64,000 nt of DNA from positions 124,001 through 188,000 of the forward strand of contig NZ_JACIZD010000001.1 of NCBI RefSeq assembly GCF_014359565.1, given 5' to 3'. The DNA comes from Immundisolibacter sp. Its GTDB lineage: Bacteria; Pseudomonadota; Gammaproteobacteria; Immundisolibacterales; Immundisolibacteraceae. Below the pieces are notes generated by a model. The model was not told the DNA's origin and did no database searches. It worked only from the letters and a program-made list of their open reading frames with translations. Positions within the stretch are counted from its first letter, which is position 1. Every line of letters starts with the position of its first letter. Both the position numbers and the translations under genes were made by a program. Positions 40,215-50,418 of the stretch are shown one piece after another.

Positions 40215-42074
<1,860 letters not shown>

Positions 42075-42125
42075 GGGACACCTCGATGCGATTTGGGCGG
42101 AACCGGTGATTATAGTTCAGCAGCG

Positions 42126-43862
42126 TCAAGTCGGGGCGCCGCCGCGATGTTTCAAGAGCGCCAGTACCTCGGCCCGCTGCTGGGCGTCGAGCTGGCTGGG
42201 CGCCGCGCCGTGCAGCAGCTCGCCGAGTCGGCCGCGCGTCGCCTGCGGCAACAGCCGGGCGACGATCTGCTCCAGTTCCTGGGCAGCCAGGGCAGCTTCC
42301 TGCGGCACCAGTTCGCTGCCGGTCAGCACCCGCGCCAGGGCCTCGCCGTCGGGGGTGCCACGCCAATGCTCGAGTAGGCGATCGAGTCGGGGTTGCGGCA
42401 GGCCGGCAATCGCCTCCAGCAGGCGGTTCAAAAAATCCATGCCGGGCCGGCGCACGGCCGCCAGCGCCGACAGGTCGCCCAGCTGCGCCGCCAGGTGCGG
42501 GTAATGGGCCAGCAACAGGACGGCGCGTCGCACCAGCGAGGGGTGACTGCCCGAGCGAGGTGTGGGCCGCGCGCGGGCAGCCTTGGCGACCAGCGCGGGC
42601 AGGGCGCGCCCAACGTGCCGGGAAATCTCGTCGCCCAGCAGGTCCCGGTAGGTGCCGGCTGGCAGCTTGTCGAGCAGGGGCTTGGCCAGCGCCGCCAGCT
42701 TCGCCCGGCCTTCCGTGGACGTCAGGTCCACCTCGCGCAGCAGGCGATCGATCAGGTGACGCGACACCGGCACCGCCTGGCCGGCGAGCTCCAGAAACGC
42801 ATCCTTGCCGATGCGCCGCACCAGCGAGTCCGGGTCTTCGCCCTCGGGCAGGAACAGCAGGCGCAGCTCGCGCCCGTCGGCCAGTTCCGGCAGGGCATTG
42901 TCGACGGCCCGCTCGGCCGCCCGTCGCCCGGCGTTGTCGCCATCGAAGCACAGCACCAGCCGCGGTGTGACCCGAAAGGCGGCCCGCAGGTGCTCGGCCG
43001 TCAGTGCGGTGCCGAGCACGGCGACGGCGTGGTCAATGCCATGCTGGGCCAGCATCACAACGTCCATGTAGCCTTCGACCACCAACAGCTGCTGCGGGTT
43101 GCGTGCCTGCCGGAGCACGTTGGGCAGGCCGTACAGTTCGCGGCCCTTGTGAAAGACGGGGGTTTCGGGCGAATTGAGGTATTTGGGCTCGCCCCGGCCG
43201 ATGATGCGGCCGCCGAAGCCGATCACCCGGCCGCGACGGTCCTCGATCGGGAACATCACCCGGCCACGAAAACGGTCATGGCCGCGCCCGCCATCGTCGC
43301 CGGTCAGCAGGCCGGCCTGGCGCAGCAAATCGACTCCGTACCGCTCGCCCAGCGCGCGGCCCAGGCCATCCCACCCGTCCGGCGCGAAGCCGAGGTGAAA
43401 ACGCGCCGCGGTTTTGCCATCCAGGCCGCGATTTTTCAGGTACTCGACCGCGCCGGCTGCGGCCGGGTGATGGCGCAGTTGCTTGCGGTAGAAGGCACTG
43501 GCCGCGGCCAGCACCTCGTACAGCGCCGCCAGCGAGGTCCCTGATTCGTGCGCCTGCGGGCTCTCCTCCGGCAGCGTCATGCCGGCGCGCTGGGCAAGCT
43601 CCGCGATGGCCTCGCGAAAGTCGAGCCGGTCGAGCGCCATCAGAAAGCCGATCACCGTGCCGTGCGCGCCGCAGCCGAAGCAGTGATAGAACTGCTTTTG
43701 CGGACTGACGGTGAACGACGGGGTTTTTTCTTCGTGGAACGGGCAGCGGCCGGCCAGTTCGCGGCCGCTGCGGCGCAACGGCACGCGCGCGCCGATGACC
43801 TCGGCGATGTCGGTGCGCGCCAGGACGGCGTCGATGAAGTCTTCGGGTATCCGGCCGCTCAT
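42126..43862 (-). CDS. dnaG: DNA primase DnaG
   Basis: 578 residues. CHC2-type zinc site CPFHEEKTPSF...CFGCG (Cys40, His43, Cys61, Cys64), RNA polymerase/TOPRIM core with LLVVEGYMDVVML and FDGDNAGRRAAERA, and the C-terminal DnaB-binding helices. It makes primers for chromosomal replication. Start at ATG 43862 follows the family; the longer frame to 43937 has no support. Confidence 0.96.
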   Translation of the reverse strand: MSGRIPEDFIDAVLARTDIAEVIGARVPLRRSGRELAGRCPFHEEKTPSFTVSPQKQFYHCFGCGAHGTVIGFLMALDRLDFREAIAELAQRAGMTLPEESPQAHESGTSLAALYEVLAAASAFYRKQLRHHPAAAGAVEYLKNRGLDGKTAARFHLGFAPDGWDGLGRALGERYGVDLLRQAGLLTGDDGGRGHDRFRGRVMFPIEDRRGRVIGFGGRIIGRGEPKYLNSPETPVFHKGRELYGLPNVLRQARNPQQLLVVEGYMDVVMLAQHGIDHAVAVLGTALTAEHLRAAFRVTPRLVLCFDGDNAGRRAAERAVDNALPELADGRELRLLFLPEGEDPDSLVRRIGKDAFLELAGQAVPVSRHLIDRLLREVDLTSTEGRAKLAALAKPLLDKLPAGTYRDLLGDEISRHVGRALPALVAKAARARPTPRSGSHPSLVRRAVLLLAHYPHLAAQLGDLSALAAVRRPGMDFLNRLLEAIAGLPQPRLDRLLEHWRGTPDGEALARVLTGSELVPQEAALAAQELEQIVARLLPQATRGRLGELLHGAAPSQLDAQQRAEVLALLKHRGGAPT

Positions 43863-43947
43863 GTCGCCCACGATAGCGCGGGCGGGCGGGCCGGGGAAGG
43901 CGGGCTCGCGGCCGTCATGGCGGCCGCGAGCTGCCAACGACCTTGAG

Positions 43948-44424
43948 TCAGATGGGATACACGATGTAGCGTGGCGCGACGTTGGTATCCATCACCGCGC
44001 GGCGGGACTTGAGCTTGGCGCCGCCGTTGCCGACCACGATCTGATCCACGTAGCGGCCGCAGACCAGGGTGCCGGTGTTGCCGGCCGAGTCGGTATAGAA
44101 CACGGTGAAGTTGCTCACCGTCTCGTACAGGTCGCCGCCCTTGGGCGTGCAGGCGATGCGCTGCACGAAATGGCGGGTCTGGTAGTCCTCGAAGGTGCCG
44201 GCCCAGACCTTGGTCACGTAGGTGACACGGTCTTCCAGGCGCTCGTGGCAGTCGTCCATCATCAGCGCCAGCGGCAGGCCGCTTTCCTCGTTTTCTTTGG
44301 CGATGCAGATGTAGGAACCGTCACTGGCGAAGGTGTCCAGCCAGCCGGACATGTCCTTGTTGTCCAGCGCGGCGATGTAGCGGGTCTGCAGCGCGTCGAT
44401 CTGCTGCAACGCTTCCTGGGTCAT
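43948..44424 (-). CDS. Ring-hydroxylating dioxygenase beta subunit
   Basis: 158 residues, SnoaL/cystatin-like fold typical of the small structural subunit: YIAALDNKDMSGWLDTFASDG, DDCHERLEDRVTYVTKVWAG and the late CGRYVDQIVVGN. The beta subunit shapes the hexamer and helps substrate choice. It lies three bases from the alpha subunit gene stop and probably pairs with it. Confidence 0.85.
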   Translation of the reverse strand: MTQEALQQIDALQTRYIAALDNKDMSGWLDTFASDGSYICIAKENEESGLPLALMMDDCHERLEDRVTYVTKVWAGTFEDYQTRHFVQRIACTPKGGDLYETVSNFTVFYTDSAGNTGTLVCGRYVDQIVVGNGGAKLKSRRAVMDTNVAPRYIVYPI

Positions 44425-44427
44425 TGA

Positions 44428-45615
44428 TCAGTTCTCCTCTCGTACGAAGCCCATGACGCGCCGGTAGTACTCCCACTTGGGCAGATTCCCGGCCTCGTCG
44501 TTTTGTTTGAAATCGAACCACATGCCCTGTTCCTGCTTGACGCCCTTCTGGAACACGGCGTTGCCCGGCGTGCGATTGCCCTGCTGCACGCGCAGGAATA
44601 TGGACGCATCCTCCATCGACACCATGCCGCACGGCCCGAGCATGTTCGAGGACTGGCGCAGGCGGTGGCGCACCATGTCCGCGTCGTCGTCGAGGTGGGC
44701 GAAATAGGCGTAGTGCACCTCGGTCTTGAGCAGCGAGCGAGCCACCGCGAAGCGCACGTTGATCATGTCCAGGTGCTTGGTCATCACCGTCAGCGGATTC
44801 AGGCTGACGATGACCGAGCCCTTGGAGGTGTGGCTGCCCTTGAAGGCGATCAGCGACGGGTCCTTCAGGAAGCCAGGGTTGTTTGGCACCTTCAGTTCCG
44901 ACTCGAAGGCGAGGTGCCCATTCTCGGTGGCGTACTGGGAGCCCTTCCCACCCTGCCAGTTCAGCATCTTGAAGGCCAGGTGCAGCAGCGGGGCGTGGTA
45001 GCCGTCGTTGTCGACGTAGGCCTTCCAGTTGCAGTCGTAGCTGACCTTCTGGTAGCCGAGCAGTTGCAGGCGTCCGTCGCCGCCCAGCAGCTGCAGCAGC
45101 GCCGGCTGCGTGCGCCCCAGCCAGGTGTCGATGTCGGGCGTGCCCTCGTGCAGGGTGGCGAAGATCAGGCCGCCGACGATGGCGCTGCGCACTTGCGCCA
45201 GGCCCGAACTTTCCATGGTGAAGCTGGGCGAGAAGTCTTCTTTGCCCGGGCAGCCGCGCAGCTCGCCGGTGCTGTCGAACAGCCAGCGGTGGTACGGGCA
45301 CTCGAACTCGGTCTTGTTGCCGCGGTTGTTGGTTTCAAGCAGCGTGCCGCGGTGCGAGCAGGCGTTGTAGAACACCCGTACCTGGCCGTCCTGGCCGTGC
45401 ACGATCAACAGCGGCCGCTCGCCGATATGAAAGGTCTTGAAGTCGCCGATGTTCGGGATTTCGCCGGTGTGCGCCACCGGGTGCCACTCGGGGCCGTAGA
45501 AGATGCGCTCGAGTTCGAGCCGGAACACGTCCTCGCGGTCGAAGATGTCCTTGGGTATCTCGTTGATCTTGGCCGGCCAGTGGACCGGCGCGCCAAACAC
45601 GGTGGGGGCGTTCAT
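44428..45615 (-). CDS. Ring-hydroxylating dioxygenase alpha subunit (Rieske)
   Basis: 395 residues, slightly shorter than typical alpha subunits. Rieske 2Fe-2S ligands Cys86/His88 (NACSHRGTLLE) and Cys106/His109 (FECPYHRWLFD); mononuclear iron site with Asp204, His207 and His212 (VDNDGYHAPLLH) and a late Asp in SMEDASIF. It inserts both atoms of O2 into an aromatic ring; the substrate is not predictable. The electron-transfer proteins (ferredoxin, reductase) are not in the window. It lies downstream of the dehydrogenase gene on the same strand. Confidence 0.92.
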   Translation of the reverse strand: MNAPTVFGAPVHWPAKINEIPKDIFDREDVFRLELERIFYGPEWHPVAHTGEIPNIGDFKTFHIGERPLLIVHGQDGQVRVFYNACSHRGTLLETNNRGNKTEFECPYHRWLFDSTGELRGCPGKEDFSPSFTMESSGLAQVRSAIVGGLIFATLHEGTPDIDTWLGRTQPALLQLLGGDGRLQLLGYQKVSYDCNWKAYVDNDGYHAPLLHLAFKMLNWQGGKGSQYATENGHLAFESELKVPNNPGFLKDPSLIAFKGSHTSKGSVIVSLNPLTVMTKHLDMINVRFAVARSLLKTEVHYAYFAHLDDDADMVRHRLRQSSNMLGPCGMVSMEDASIFLRVQQGNRTPGNAVFQKGVKQEQGMWFDFKQNDEAGNLPKWEYYRRVMGFVREEN

Positions 45616-45695: not shown

Positions 45696-46511
45696 TCACA
45701 AGTCCTCGCCGCCGGCCATCTTGGTGAAACCGCGCACCCCCAGGCCGCCGTCGGTATTGATCACCACGCCGGTCATCGGCGCCGAGTTGGCACGCGAGGC
45801 GAGCAACACGTAGGGGCCGCAGTAGTCGTCGGGCGCGGGCGCGATCTGCAGGGGCGAGATGGCGCGCAGCATGTCATCGAGCCCCTCCATCTGGCTGAGC
45901 TTGACCCCGGCCGAGCCGGTGGCCGCCAGGCCGCCCAGTTCCGTCTTCATGCCGCCGGGAGCGACGCCGTTGACGCGCACCTTGGGCGCCAGTTCATAGG
46001 CCAGTTCCCGCACCAGGCCGACCACGGCATGCTTGGACGCCGTGTAGATCGGACCGCCGCCGGCTGGGTAGAAGCCGGCATTGGAGATGGTGTAGATGAT
46101 GCTGCCGCGGGTCTTGAGCAGCTCCGGCAGGGCCGCCTTGGCACCCAGCAGGTAGCCTTTGACATTGACCGCGAACAGCTCGTCGAAGGCGGCCGAAATC
46201 CGCTCGGCGTCAATCTGCGGCAGGGTCTGGAAGTAGTCGAACACGCCGGCGTTGCCGATGAAGGTATCCAGCTGCCCGAAACGCGCCACGGTGTCCTGCA
46301 CCACGCGCGCGTTGTCGGCGTAGGTGGTGACGTCGCCGGTGACGGCCAGCACGCGGTCGCCGAAGTCCCGCGTCAGCTGCGCCGCCTTGGCCGGATCGCG
46401 CTCCAGCACACCCACGCTGGCGCCCTCGGCGATGAAGCGCTGCACCAGCGCCCGGCCGAGGCCCGAGCCGCCGCCTGTGACGATTGCAACCGTATTGTCC
46501 AGCCAGCCCAT
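45696..46511 (-). CDS. cis-dihydrodiol dehydrogenase (SDR, BphB-like)
   Basis: 271 residues. NAD-binding VTGGGSGLGR (11-20), catalytic Ser143, Tyr156 and Lys160 (IIYTISNAGFYP; PIYTASK). FIGNAGVFDYFQTL and RVNGVAPGGMKTELGG are close to BphB, which oxidises cis-dihydrodiols to catechols after ring dioxygenation; 2,3-dihydro-2,3-dihydroxybenzoate or other diols are alternatives. AAGGAGG precedes the ATG. First gene of the leftward catabolic run. Confidence 0.88.
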   Translation of the reverse strand: MGWLDNTVAIVTGGGSGLGRALVQRFIAEGASVGVLERDPAKAAQLTRDFGDRVLAVTGDVTTYADNARVVQDTVARFGQLDTFIGNAGVFDYFQTLPQIDAERISAAFDELFAVNVKGYLLGAKAALPELLKTRGSIIYTISNAGFYPAGGGPIYTASKHAVVGLVRELAYELAPKVRVNGVAPGGMKTELGGLAATGSAGVKLSQMEGLDDMLRAISPLQIAPAPDDYCGPYVLLASRANSAPMTGVVINTDGGLGVRGFTKMAGGEDL

Positions 46512-46716: not shown

Positions 46717-48042
46717 ATGAAACCCTTCGAATCCATCAACCTCGATGCCTACCTCGACGAACGTCCGGCCGAGGGCGTGATCCGCGTCGACCGCTCCATC
46801 TTCACCGACCCGGCCATCTTCGAGCTGGAGATGGAACGCATCTGGGAGCGCAGCTGGCTGTACGTCTGCCACGAGAGCCAGATTCCGAATCATGGCGATT
46901 TCCTGACCACCCACCTGGGGCGCCAGCCGGTCGTTGTGATTCGAGGCGCCTCGGGCAAGGTCAACGTCTTCATCAATGCCTGTTCGCACCGTGGCTCACA
47001 GCTGGTGCACGAGGAGCGCGGCAACAAGACCGACATGACCTGCTTCTTCCACGGCTGGTGCTTCGATACCGACGGCAAGCTGATGTCGGTGACACGCGAG
47101 AAGGGCGGCGGCTATCCGGACCAGTTCCGCAAGGAGAATTTCCACCTCACCGCCGCGCCGCGGGTGGAGTCCTACCGTGGCTTCGTGTTCGCGTCCCTGA
47201 GCGACGAGGTGCCGACGCTGGCCGAGCACCTGCGCGACGCGCGGGTGATGATCGACCTGATGGCGGACCAGGGCGGCGAGCAGGGGCTGGAGGTCCTGCG
47301 CGGCCATTCGACCTACACCTATGCCGGCAACTGGAAGCTGCAGGCCGAAAACGGTGTCGATGGCTACCACGTGCACGGCCTGCACGTGAACTTCGCGCTG
47401 ACCACGCAGAACCGCGAGCGCATCCGCGCCGGCGCCAACCAGATCAAGTCCATGGACGTGTCGCAGCTTGGGAGCCTCGACGCCGGCTTTTTCGACTTCG
47501 GTAATGGCCACGTGGTGCTGTGGGGCGACTGGCCGAACCGCGGCGACCGCCGGCCCAATTTCCACATGTACGACGAGTGGACGGAAAAGTTCGGCCAGGT
47601 TTACGCCGAGTGGATGATCGGCAAGCTGCGCAACACCCTGATCTATCCGAACGTGTTCCTGATGGACCAGATGTCCTCGCAGATTCGCGTGTTCCGGCCG
47701 ATCGCCGTGGACAAGACCGAGGTCACCATCTACGCCATCGCACCCAAGGGCGAGTCGCCGAAAATGCGCGCCCACCGCATCCGCCAGTACGAGGATTTCT
47801 TCAACGCCTCCGGCATGGCGACACCCGACGACCTGAGCGAATTCGCCTACGCGCAGAATGCCGCACAGGGCCGCCTGGCGCGCTGGAACGACCTGACGCG
47901 CGGCGTGAAGTTCCTGACCAAGGGTGCCGACGCACGCGCCAAGGCACTGGGCGTGAATCCCGAGTACTGCGGCGGCAAGGTGGAGGACGAAGGCATTTTC
48001 CTGGCCCAGCACCGGCATTGGCTGAATGCGATGCAGAAATAA
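46717..48042 (+). CDS. Benzoate 1,2-dioxygenase-like alpha subunit
   Basis: 441 residues. Rieske ligands Cys89/His91 (NACSHRGSQLV) and Cys109/His112 (MTCFFHGWCFD), mononuclear iron Asp215/His218/His223 (AENGVDGYHVHGLH). The blocks GYPDQF, VESYRGFVFASLSD, VLRGHSTYTYAGNWKLQAEN and LTTQNRE match BenA/XylX/AntA closely. Likely substrate is a benzoate or related aromatic acid. The next gene is its beta subunit. The reductase (BenC) is not in the window. Confidence 0.93.
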   Translation: MKPFESINLDAYLDERPAEGVIRVDRSIFTDPAIFELEMERIWERSWLYVCHESQIPNHGDFLTTHLGRQPVVVIRGASGKVNVFINACSHRGSQLVHEERGNKTDMTCFFHGWCFDTDGKLMSVTREKGGGYPDQFRKENFHLTAAPRVESYRGFVFASLSDEVPTLAEHLRDARVMIDLMADQGGEQGLEVLRGHSTYTYAGNWKLQAENGVDGYHVHGLHVNFALTTQNRERIRAGANQIKSMDVSQLGSLDAGFFDFGNGHVVLWGDWPNRGDRRPNFHMYDEWTEKFGQVYAEWMIGKLRNTLIYPNVFLMDQMSSQIRVFRPIAVDKTEVTIYAIAPKGESPKMRAHRIRQYEDFFNASGMATPDDLSEFAYAQNAAQGRLARWNDLTRGVKFLTKGADARAKALGVNPEYCGGKVEDEGIFLAQHRHWLNAMQK

Positions 48043-48087: not shown

Positions 48088-48576
48088 ATGGACGACGTCG
48101 CGCGCTGCGCCGACCTGCTGTACACCGAAGCCCGCCTGATCGACCAGAAGGCCTGGGACGACTGGCTGGCCCTTTACCTGCCGGATGCCGAGTTCTGGAT
48201 TCCGGCCTGGGAGTCGGAGCACAGCTACACCACCGACCCGCAAAACGAGATCTCGCTGATCTACTACGCCGACCGCAGCGGCCTGGAAGACCGCGTGTTT
48301 CGCCTGCGCACCGGCATGTCGTCGGCCTCGGTGCCGCTGCCGCGTACCAGCCATCTGGTCGGCAACGTGCAGGCCAGCAAGCAGGCCAATGGGGATTTCG
48401 AGGTTCACGCCAGTTGGCAGGTGACCTACTACAAGCACAAGGAAACGCACTTCTTTGCCGGCCAGTACGAGTACACGCTGCGCCCGCAGGATGACGGCAG
48501 TCTGCGCATCGCGCGCAAGAAAATCATCGTCATCAACGACCTGATCCCGCAGGTGCTGGACTTCTACCACGTCTGA
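48088..48576 (+). CDS. Benzoate-type dioxygenase beta subunit
   Basis: 162 residues. LLYTEARLIDQKAWDDWLAL, YLPDAEFWIPAWESEHSYTT and ISLIYYADRSGLEDRVFRLR match BenB/XylY/AntB. It forms the hexamer with the alpha subunit 45 bases upstream. Confidence 0.92.
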   Translation: MDDVARCADLLYTEARLIDQKAWDDWLALYLPDAEFWIPAWESEHSYTTDPQNEISLIYYADRSGLEDRVFRLRTGMSSASVPLPRTSHLVGNVQASKQANGDFEVHASWQVTYYKHKETHFFAGQYEYTLRPQDDGSLRIARKKIIVINDLIPQVLDFYHV

Positions 48577-48605
48577 CGACGGCCGCCCGGTCGCCGGAGT
48601 TCGCC

Positions 48606-49499
48606 ATGGATACCGTCAACTGGGGCACGCCGCCGGTCGGCCTGTTCAACTTCCCGATCGAGCTGTGGCAGACGAGCGGCCGGTTTGCGCCGCTTGGCCT
48701 GGATCTGAAACTCTCCAGCCACCTCACCGGCGAGGAATACGCCGCCCGTATCCGCGCCGGCGCCTACGACATGGGCCAGATCGGCACGCCGGTGTTCCTG
48801 CCGGCCGCCGTTGGCTCGCGCGAGTACGCCGTCGTCAGCGTGGGGTTTTGCGACTTCGCACCCTTCTATCTGGTGGCCGCGCCGGGCGTGAACCGGCTTT
48901 CCGACTGCCGCGGCCAGAAGGTCGTCATCAACAAGCGCATGACCTGCCCGGGCAGCCTGCTGGAGTGGCATGCCCGCCAGGAAGGGCTGACGATTGACGA
49001 CTTCAAGGTGGTCGAGCTGATGCAGGACAGCCGCTTCGACAACTACGGCCAGGCCTTCGCCGACGGCATCGAGCGCGGTGCCTTTCGCATCGGCATCCTG
49101 TACGAGCCCTACGTCAGCCTGGTGGAGCGCCGCTTCGGCTGGCGCGTGCTGGCCGACTATGCCGAGCTGCTGCGCCCGGCCAACTACGGCATCCTGCTGT
49201 ACGCCCGCCGGCGCTGGATCGAAGACAAACCGGACCTGGTGCGGCGCGTGGTGCAGGCCTATTTTGCCGCCGCGAACTACGGCGTCGAGCACCCAGCGGC
49301 GCTGCGGCCGTTCGCCTCGCAGCTGCCGTTCGTGACCGAGGACGACATCGAGCGCGCCATGCGCCGCGACGGCCCGCACTGGCTGCGCGAGCCCAGCCTC
49401 GACTGGGCGTTCCTGGAGCGGGTGGAGCAGGAACTGAAAACGCAGCGGCGCGTGCCGGCCGACTACGCCATCCGCGACTATGTCGCCGCCACGTATTGA
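48606..49499 (+). CDS. NMT1/SBP-like protein without signal peptide
   Basis: 297 residues with the two-lobed binding-protein fold of NMT1/THI5-type ABC solute-binding proteins: GEEYAARIRAGAYDMGQIGT, VFLPAAVG, GQKVVINKRMTCPGSLLEW and IGILYEPYVSLVERR. It starts MDTVNWGTPPVGLFNFP with no signal peptide or lipobox, so it probably stays in the cytosol. Enzymes such as 4,5-dihydroxyphthalate decarboxylase share this fold, so a catabolic enzyme or a ligand sensor is possible. It follows the dioxygenase beta gene by 29 bases. Confidence 0.75.
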   Translation: MDTVNWGTPPVGLFNFPIELWQTSGRFAPLGLDLKLSSHLTGEEYAARIRAGAYDMGQIGTPVFLPAAVGSREYAVVSVGFCDFAPFYLVAAPGVNRLSDCRGQKVVINKRMTCPGSLLEWHARQEGLTIDDFKVVELMQDSRFDNYGQAFADGIERGAFRIGILYEPYVSLVERRFGWRVLADYAELLRPANYGILLYARRRWIEDKPDLVRRVVQAYFAAANYGVEHPAALRPFASQLPFVTEDDIERAMRRDGPHWLREPSLDWAFLERVEQELKTQRRVPADYAIRDYVAATY

Positions 49500-49527: not shown

Positions 49528-50418
49528 ATGCAGCTTGGATTCGTGGGCGTCGGCACCATGGGCGTACCCATCGTCGGTCACCTGGTAGCCGCCGGGCACA
49601 CGGTCAAGGCCTTCGACCTGTCGGCCGACGCGCTGGCCAAGGCACAGGCGGCCGGCGCGCAGGCGGCAGGCTCGGTCGGCGAGGCCGCCGCCGGGGCACA
49701 GGCCGTGTTCGTCGCCGTCTCCAACCAGGACGTGCTGGGTGAAGTGCTGCGACAGCCAGGTGGCATATTCGAGTGCGGCGCGCCAGGGGCGATCGTGGTC
49801 GATCTTGGCACCACCGCGCCGCCGCGTTGCCGCGCCTTCGCCGCCGAGGCCCGCGCGCGGGGCATGGATTACGTGGACGCCCCACTGAGCGGCTCCACGC
49901 CCTGGGCACAGGCCGGCACGCTGGCCGTCATGGTCGGCGCCGAGCAGGCCGCCTGGGGCACCGTGCTGCCGCTGCTGCAGACCTTCGGCGGCAGCATTTT
50001 TCATCTGGGTCCGGTCGGCAGCGGGCAGACCGCCAAGCTGTGCCACCAGCTCGCCTTCATGGGCACGCTGCTGGGCCTGAGCGAAGCGGTGGTGCTGGGC
50101 GAGCGCTGCGGCATCGACGGCGTCAAGCTGATGGACGTGCTGGGCGCCTGCGTGTCGCCGCGCCACGTGATCGATTTCTACAAGCCCCAGCTCGCCGCCC
50201 GCCCGCTGGGCGAGGGGCCGACCGGCCTTGGCATCTTCTACAAGGATCTGCGGGCCGTGCAGGAACTGTCGCAGCAGGATGCCGGCATCACGCTGCCGCT
50301 GGGCGAGGCGCTGCTCGGCCTGTTCCAGCAGGCGATGGACGCCGGCTACAGGAATTTCGATCCGTTCGGCCTGAGCGAGCTGATCGACAAGGGCGTAATC
50401 AAACACCGCGAAGGCTGA
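49528..50418 (+). CDS. Beta-hydroxyacid dehydrogenase family (3-hydroxyisobutyrate dehydrogenase-like)
   Basis: 296 residues. N-terminal Rossmann motif LGFVGVGTMGVPIVGHLVAA, substrate loop VDAPLSGSTPWAQAGTLAVM, and catalytic Lys in GSGQTAKLCHQ. It oxidises short hydroxyacids with NAD(P). Its place in the run suggests a late step of ring-cleavage product breakdown or a different acid; not provable. The ATG at 49528 starts the fold. Confidence 0.85.
   Translation: MQLGFVGVGTMGVPIVGHLVAAGHTVKAFDLSADALAKAQAAGAQAAGSVGEAAAGAQAVFVAVSNQDVLGEVLRQPGGIFECGAPGAIVVDLGTTAPPRCRAFAAEARARGMDYVDAPLSGSTPWAQAGTLAVMVGAEQAAWGTVLPLLQTFGGSIFHLGPVGSGQTAKLCHQLAFMGTLLGLSEAVVLGERCGIDGVKLMDVLGACVSPRHVIDFYKPQLAARPLGEGPTGLGIFYKDLRAVQELSQQDAGITLPLGEALLGLFQQAMDAGYRNFDPFGLSELIDKGVIKHREG

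Follow-up and report, generated by a model that had tools for sequence, protein, structure and literature searches.

The open reading frame at 48606 to 49499 on the plus strand of the window, the 64-kb stretch of Immundisolibacter sp. DNA analyzed here, starts with ATG and encodes a 297-residue protein that has a solute-binding fold of the NMT1/THI5-like type without an export signal. That this protein is intracellular and works with dioxygenase genes is well supported, because it has no signal peptide, no ABC transporter partner lies nearby, and its gene order is conserved. We consider it quite possible, if a little short of an even chance, that it is a cytoplasmic protein derived from a solute-binding protein (SBP) of the SsuA/TauA/THI5 type, with export and transporter lost, and that it acts as an enzyme in the aromatic pathway encoded by the surrounding gene island.

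An earlier note on this DNA had described a solute-binding fold that starts directly without a signal peptide, and had named a missed upstream start giving a signal peptide as one finding that would refute it. The reading frame (C1:172606-173496 in the window genome, G000) proved exact, with no hydrophobic N terminus. A Shine-Dalgarno-like GGAG, read from the sequence at 48596 to 48599 on the plus strand, precedes the ATG by 6 bases. Upstream of this ATG the frame stays open for 37 codons, a stretch that overlaps the beta1 gene and reads as charged and non-hydrophobic; no ATG, GTG, or TTG was found in it, so that an upstream start supplying a signal peptide was ruled out. In the nearest relative (G001), an in-frame GTG lies 11 codons upstream of the ortholog and adds no signal. 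On a simple hydropathy index, the highest 9-residue average within the first 40 positions is 1.22. The same measure gives 2.94 and 2.89 for two SBPs of the window genome that have a linked permease and a start resembling a signal peptide, and 2.71 to 2.94 for three SBP controls; the index is unspecific, as a DszB-like protein with no obvious signal also reaches 2.49. By this index and the missing upstream start, the protein carries no Sec/Tat or lipoprotein signal peptide.

The statement that no ABC transporter partner is near also held, both within the window and beyond its edges. Searches with PF00528 and PF00005 placed the closest ABC permease at C1:219367, ~46 kb from the end of the gene (~107 kb on the other side), and the closest ABC ATPase at C1:218765, ~45 kb away; an ABC partner just outside the window was thereby ruled out, with none present within ~45 kb. 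The SBPs encoded on C4 and C17 of the window genome each have a permease within 3 kb.

The two-lobe NMT1/SBP pattern that had been claimed from the sequence is borne out by Pfam profiles, by a structural model, and by structure comparison. The protein scores 29.5 bits with PF09084 (NMT1; cutoff, 20.5) and 25.7 bits with PF13379 (NMT1_2; cutoff, 24.7), while its best NCBIfam match, to the SsuA family, reaches 38 bits, far under the cutoff of 163; no domain other than the SBP fold was matched by Pfam or NCBIfam profiles. Structure prediction, a check that the earlier note had proposed, was carried out with AlphaFold on an input of ten sequences (pLDDT, 81.7; pTM, 0.81; range of the five models, 58 to 82). 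The model has the SBP fold and aligns full-length to both SBPs and SBP-fold enzymes, with Z scores of 23.4 for SsuA (2x26), 20.2 for THI5, 18.2 for DszB, 18.1 for MqnA, and 14.8 for 4,5-dihydroxyphthalate decarboxylase (9jp7).

The gene belongs to an island of seven, with beta2, alpha2, and a short-chain dehydrogenase (SDR) gene on the minus strand and alpha1, beta1, the gene itself, and a 3-hydroxyisobutyrate dehydrogenase (HIBADH)-like gene on the plus strand. The description of a dioxygenase cluster thus stands, since the island contains two Rieske dioxygenases and a dihydrodiol-dehydrogenase-like SDR. Alpha1 (46717 to 48042, plus strand) is a BenA/XylX-like Rieske large subunit (TIGR03229, 578 bits against a cutoff of 781; PF00355 and PF00848), and beta1 (48088 to 48576, plus strand), which ends 29 bp upstream of the gene, is a BenB/AntB-like small subunit (TIGR03231, 183 bits, and TIGR03232, 174 bits, both below their cutoffs; PF00866). 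Downstream, the NAD(P)-dependent HIBADH-like protein (49528 to 50418, plus strand) matches PF03446 and PF14833 and falls under the cutoff of every listed NCBIfam model. The SDR (45696 to 46511, minus strand) resembles the cis-dihydrodiol dehydrogenase HcaB (NF004849, 403 bits, cutoff 330; NF042950, 393 bits, cutoff 450). Alpha2 (44428 to 45615, minus strand), a second large subunit, is distantly AndAc-like (NF041684, 168 bits, cutoff 750; PF00355), and beta2 (43948 to 44424, minus strand), a second small subunit, is distantly AndAd-like (NF041685, 95 bits, cutoff 230; PF00866). Profile matches revealed no regulator among the seven genes. The island is flanked by dnaG and rpoD, identified by Pfam, after beta2 and by a SIS-domain gene near the other side. 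At 40215 to 44424 of the window, beta2 ends a short way before dnaG and rpoD, which share its strand, and this arrangement recurs in G006; catabolic transcription might read through from beta2 into the genes for primase and the main sigma factor.

Rieske large-subunit genes are numerous in the window genome (3.09 Mb), which has 44 places matching alpha1 at E values up to 1e-20. Counting the query itself, 16 of these have alignments to its 443 residues that start no later than residue 17, end no earlier than residue 438, and show at least 38% identity. A neighbor resembling our protein is known at only one of the 44 places, and among the six NMT1 members of the genome, it is the only one encoded within 10 kb of a Rieske alpha gene. 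The closest alpha1 paralog (59%; L052, 3851 to 7420, on C1 of the window genome) lies beside two ABC-permease domains at C1:500850-502213.

The island is kept in four genomes representing two genera of the Immundisolibacteraceae (the window genome, G001, G004, and G006), and the gene is accordingly present in four members of a family set of seven genomes that includes its own; the three orthologs are 94, 59, and 61% identical to it. G001, of the same genus, retains all seven island genes at 94 to 97%. In the other genus, represented by G004 and G006, identities are 65 to 67% for alpha1, 59 to 61% for our protein, 46 to 47% for the HIBADH-like protein, 68% for the SDR, 68 to 70% for alpha2, and 58% for beta2, with beta1 at 63% in G006. 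The beta gene preceding the G004 ortholog is split over two frames (L009, 3215 to 3706), which reflects either an assembly error or real breakage. Both of these islands carry extra alpha and beta copies, and in G006 a zinc-type dehydrogenase gene is inserted between the ortholog and the HIBADH-like gene. Since the island of G006, in the other genus, also abuts dnaG and rpoD as it does in the window, the island was probably present in the common ancestor. In all five loci of the clade (the window, L008, L009, L010, and L016), the gene directly follows a Rieske beta gene; L014, L015, and L017 duplicate the contigs of L009, L010, and L012, judged by equal lengths, and each pair was counted once. 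Comparison with G001 gave pN of 0.034 and pS of 0.225, and dN of 0.035 and dS of 0.267, for a dN/dS ratio of ~0.13 (0.06 to 0.17 for the six island neighbors); the protein is under purifying selection.

No match to the gene was found at 1e-20 in G003 or G005, which are 72 and 60% complete, respectively. The relevant contig of G003 carries rpoD- and dnaG-like genes, beta2, alpha2 (69%), and the SDR gene (69%), then additional copies of alpha and beta, and stops before the site where G006 carries the gene. G002 (95% complete, 6% contaminated) has only a sister protein at 31% identity, and it also lacks alpha2 at the level of an ortholog (matches of 44 to 59%, the best full-length one at 58%); therefore, the gene and alpha2 go together. 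The best alpha2 match is 50% in G005 and 44% in G007, a genome of another family from an order set of eight, in which the gene itself was not detected at 1e-30. Judged by gene content, the gene travels with an island that not every genome of the family carries.

At 1e-20, a sample of 369 genomes from the class yielded three with a match, all of the same family and one of them the window genome, and a phylum sample of 398 genomes returned only the window genome among the matches shown (at most five scored candidates per genome). Plasmids gave no match at 1e-10. At E values up to 1, the plasmid search returned 207 records; the 30 listed, at 21 to 27% identity, are SBPs or unannotated proteins, with one labeled a regulator, and the lowest E value among them is 7e-11, for a Paenibacillus SBP. 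A scan of a genome collection found nothing with the single protein and 10 loci with an alignment. One of these, L016, is a partial copy at 65% identity from a bin assigned to the Deltaproteobacteria; it may be mis-binned, since its contig is only 3.7 kb and has the gene order of G006. Sister proteins with 24 to 31% identity were found in G002, G004, G006, Binatia, and a single bin labeled Desulfurellaceae, and six of six sister rows tested lack a hydrophobic start by hydropathy. Rieske alpha genes lie near the sister genes at L011 (G002), where LigB, hydrolase, and UbiD genes are also found, and at L012 (G006), where the sister gene adjoins a TetR gene. Comparison of a single Binatia locus, L018, revealed no alpha gene near the sister gene, which there adjoins a luciferase-like monooxygenase gene. 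The four full-length members of the clade, together with the partial L016, all combine the lack of a signal peptide, a cysteine at position 114, and a gene position after a Rieske beta gene. A search of the open-licence literature revealed no description of NMT1 proteins with ring-hydroxylating dioxygenases, nor of signal-less cytoplasmic SBPs with aromatics; that literature contains, as far as our search shows, no account of this distinct clade of SBP-fold proteins without a signal.

A tree of 20 NMT1 proteins set our protein and its sisters apart (96/94) from the rows of SBPs and of decarboxylase-like and DszB-like proteins, with the long-branched NMT1 protein G006_C31 falling on the side of our protein and its sisters. 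The rows were chosen by hand, leaving out L016, L020, L021, L022, L037, L044, and the second DszB-like gene of L049; the tree is midpoint rooted, carries long-branch warnings, and does not unite the three SBPs, and only the 96/94 split is used here. Among proteins of known structure, the SsuA/TauA SBPs (2x26, 3ksj, 6ssy) are the most similar, sharing the two-lobe fold over the full length (Z, 23.4) and giving the best PDB profile match (E = 1.1e-9). Our protein differs from them in that it lacks a signal peptide, has neither an ABC permease nor an ABC ATPase encoded within ~45 kb, and takes its place in a dioxygenase gene order.

The earlier note had pointed out that decarboxylases for dihydroxyphthalate share this fold. 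4,5-Dihydroxyphthalate decarboxylase is cytoplasmic, and the structure of the Comamonas testosteroni enzyme (9jp7) belongs to the same fold class (Z, 14.8). The comparison holds at the level of the fold and not of the sequence, and SsuA, THI5, DszB, and MqnA are all nearer. A sequence search with E values up to 1 and a profile search with E values up to 0.2 did not return 9jp7, while a homolog from the same bacterial family used as a positive control (L034, from G004) finds it at 2e-26; identity with this decarboxylase was thus rejected by sequence, and the two proteins stand apart in the tree.

Three further SBP-fold enzymes were compared. The pyrimidine synthases THI5/THI13 (4h6d, 4esx) are cytoplasmic, and their lysine and CCCFC motif have functional roles. 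They are the top Foldseek matches (profile E, ~1e-6; Z, 20.2). By eye, however, THI5 His66, whose position is fixed by the H66G entry 4esw, aligns to Val63 of our protein, the lysine four positions earlier to Ile59, and CCCFC to residues 190 to 194, RPANY. The chorismate dehydratase MqnA (7an5 to 7an9), also cytoplasmic, shares the fold (Z, 18.1) and gives only a weak C-terminal profile match (E = 0.035). DszB, the 2'-hydroxybiphenyl-2-sulfinate desulfinase (2de2, 2de3), is an aromatic enzyme of the SBP fold (Z, 18.2) with homologs in the family of the window organism, among them L042 of G006 (1e-19). We take C27 of DszB to be its catalytic cysteine, placed in the N-lobe and acting with a catalytic histidine. 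Both residues are kept in five of five DszB-like rows of the joint alignment, and their columns are gaps in all four rows of our clade. An hhalign comparison of our profile with the DszB-like proteins of the family (probability, 97.9%) paired His39 with the DszB-like histidine and began too late to offer a partner for the cysteine; the joint alignment did not reproduce this pairing, which therefore carries no inference. In these alignments, no active site of a known SBP-fold enzyme is present, and by the sequence tests the protein is none of 4,5-dihydroxyphthalate decarboxylase, DszB, and THI5.

The same comparisons turned up relatives of these enzymes within the family. DszB-like proteins keeping Cys, His, and RxGG are encoded at L044 (2033 to 3070, on C3 of the window genome), L042, L030, L035, and L043, so that such proteins with RxGG occur in several Immundisolibacteraceae genomes, including that of the window. 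In G004, a DszB-like gene and a decarboxylase-like gene both lie near a Rieske alpha gene: at L048 (7857 to 13384, contig 193), DszB-like and 4,5-dihydroxyphthalate-decarboxylase-like genes adjoin and are followed by a deiodinase-like gene and the alpha gene, with a luciferase-like monooxygenase gene upstream and a 151-residue open reading frame without a Pfam match after alpha.

Cys114 is present in nine of nine rows of the clade and its sisters, and a cysteine in none of nine other NMT1 rows of the joint alignment, although how it lines up with the distant rows is alignment dependent. In the model, it marks the predicted start of a helix (H114-125). SsuA has a serine at the aligned position, within a serine-rich stretch, and Cys114 may therefore only bind. 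Within this alignment, the polar residues Asn109, Lys110, Asn146, and Asn193 are kept in our clade only; Asp145 is not clade specific, as an aspartate is also found in the DszB-like rows.

We favor an enzyme acting on a carboxylated ring because the gene keeps company with those for a BenAB-like dioxygenase and a dihydrodiol dehydrogenase, because the protein is probably cytoplasmic and has two lobes, and because there are precedents for SBP-fold enzymes in aromatic pathways. SBPs are known to have given rise to enzymes (PMC7683729). In such a scheme, an SsuA/TauA/THI5-type ancestor would have shed export and transporter, and the lobes of its descendant would shut around the carboxylate of an aromatic or dihydrodiol compound made by the BenAB/XylXY-like alpha1-beta1 dioxygenase, alone or after the SDR. 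The carboxylate might be held at the N terminus of the helix starting at Cys114, and Cys114, together with Asn109, Lys110, Asn146, and Asn193, could help to protonate the ring as CO2 leaves, without a cofactor; Cys114 would serve as the acid or as a ligand holder. Decarboxylation is our leading guess, made by analogy with the phthalate 4,5-pathway, in which a dioxygenase and a dihydrodiol dehydrogenase are similarly joined by a decarboxylase of the SBP fold. Here, the third place would be taken by a separately derived SBP-fold protein. In that pathway, 4,5-dihydroxyphthalate decarboxylase acts after the ring dioxygenase and the dihydrodiol dehydrogenase (PMC13040137). Catalysis, the substrate, decarboxylation, and the roles given to Cys114 and the cleft residues are all inferred in this scheme. 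Several points temper it. SsuA, which the model matches best (Z, 23.4) and whose family is also the best, if far subthreshold, NCBIfam match, is a non-catalytic SBP. The protein has no active site of a known SBP-fold enzyme, a neighbor of this kind is known at one of the 44 alpha places only, and the Binatia sister gene at L018 has no alpha gene near it. BenD-type SDRs can release CO2 during oxidation, so that a separate decarboxylase may not be needed. More tentatively still, the protein could represent a new SBP-derived class, a cofactor-free, Cys114-dependent decarboxylase or related lyase acting on a dihydroxylated aromatic acid from the breakdown of polycyclic aromatic hydrocarbons (PAHs), a class that arose independently of DszB and 4,5-dihydroxyphthalate decarboxylase and has stayed with a BenAB-like dioxygenase in two Immundisolibacteraceae genera; we regard this fuller proposal as possible and not probable.

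The main rival, which fits the same facts somewhat less well than an enzyme and which we think unlikely while taking it seriously, is a non-catalytic cytoplasmic binder that holds a poorly soluble or reactive aromatic acid, the substrate or product of the dioxygenase, and delivers it to the pathway enzymes or buffers it for them. The closest folds and families are those of binding proteins, the two-lobe fold is kept, and the gene is coupled to dioxygenase genes, all as a carrier would have it; however, mere carrying would not obviously call for the shared cysteine and the polar residues specific to the clade, and we know of no cytoplasmic SBP carrier of this kind.

The earlier note had offered a new intracellular enzyme or an aromatic sensor. 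The intracellular location is upheld and an enzyme is plausible; a sensor is less likely, because no other domain was matched in the protein. We consider it improbable that the protein is an intracellular sensor or an accessory subunit whose ligand alters contact with a regulator or with the dioxygenase, for example by stabilizing the alpha-beta oxygenase. Its gene position directly after the beta gene in five of five loci, and the TetR gene adjoining the sister gene at L012, would suit such a role, but no DNA-binding or signaling domain was matched in the protein and no regulator is found among the seven island genes.

Very improbable is a desulfinase-like enzyme that would release sulfite from an aromatic sulfinate in the manner of DszB: the shared fold, the profile match with its histidine pairing, and the DszB-like genes of the same lineage speak for it, but the columns of the DszB cysteine and histidine are gapped in all four rows, the pairing of His39 was not reproduced, and none of the seven island genes encodes a desulfurization-type flavin monooxygenase. 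A relic transporter component, decaying or functionless after loss of its signal peptide and partners, would agree with the SsuA-like ancestry, but this reading is largely refuted by the conservation of the protein (dN/dS of ~0.13 against G001, and a frame kept open in three other genomes of two genera at 59 to 94% identity), and we give it scarcely any weight.

The passage from binding protein to enzyme is a known evolutionary route that is not known to be common; if our protein is an enzyme, as we favor, it would be a further case of this route, in a clade of its own. The setting is one of PAH breakdown: stable-isotope probing has linked the group of Immundisolibacter to the breakdown of high-molecular-weight PAHs and has tied "Pyrene Group 2," to which I. 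cernigliae TR3.2 belongs, to pyrene and other PAHs (PMC5054325), and 21 xylX variants are reported for I. cernigliae in another study (PMC9535955). The island neighbors suggest reactions to test, and a testable protein tied to one of many Rieske dioxygenases offers a handle on their lower pathways.
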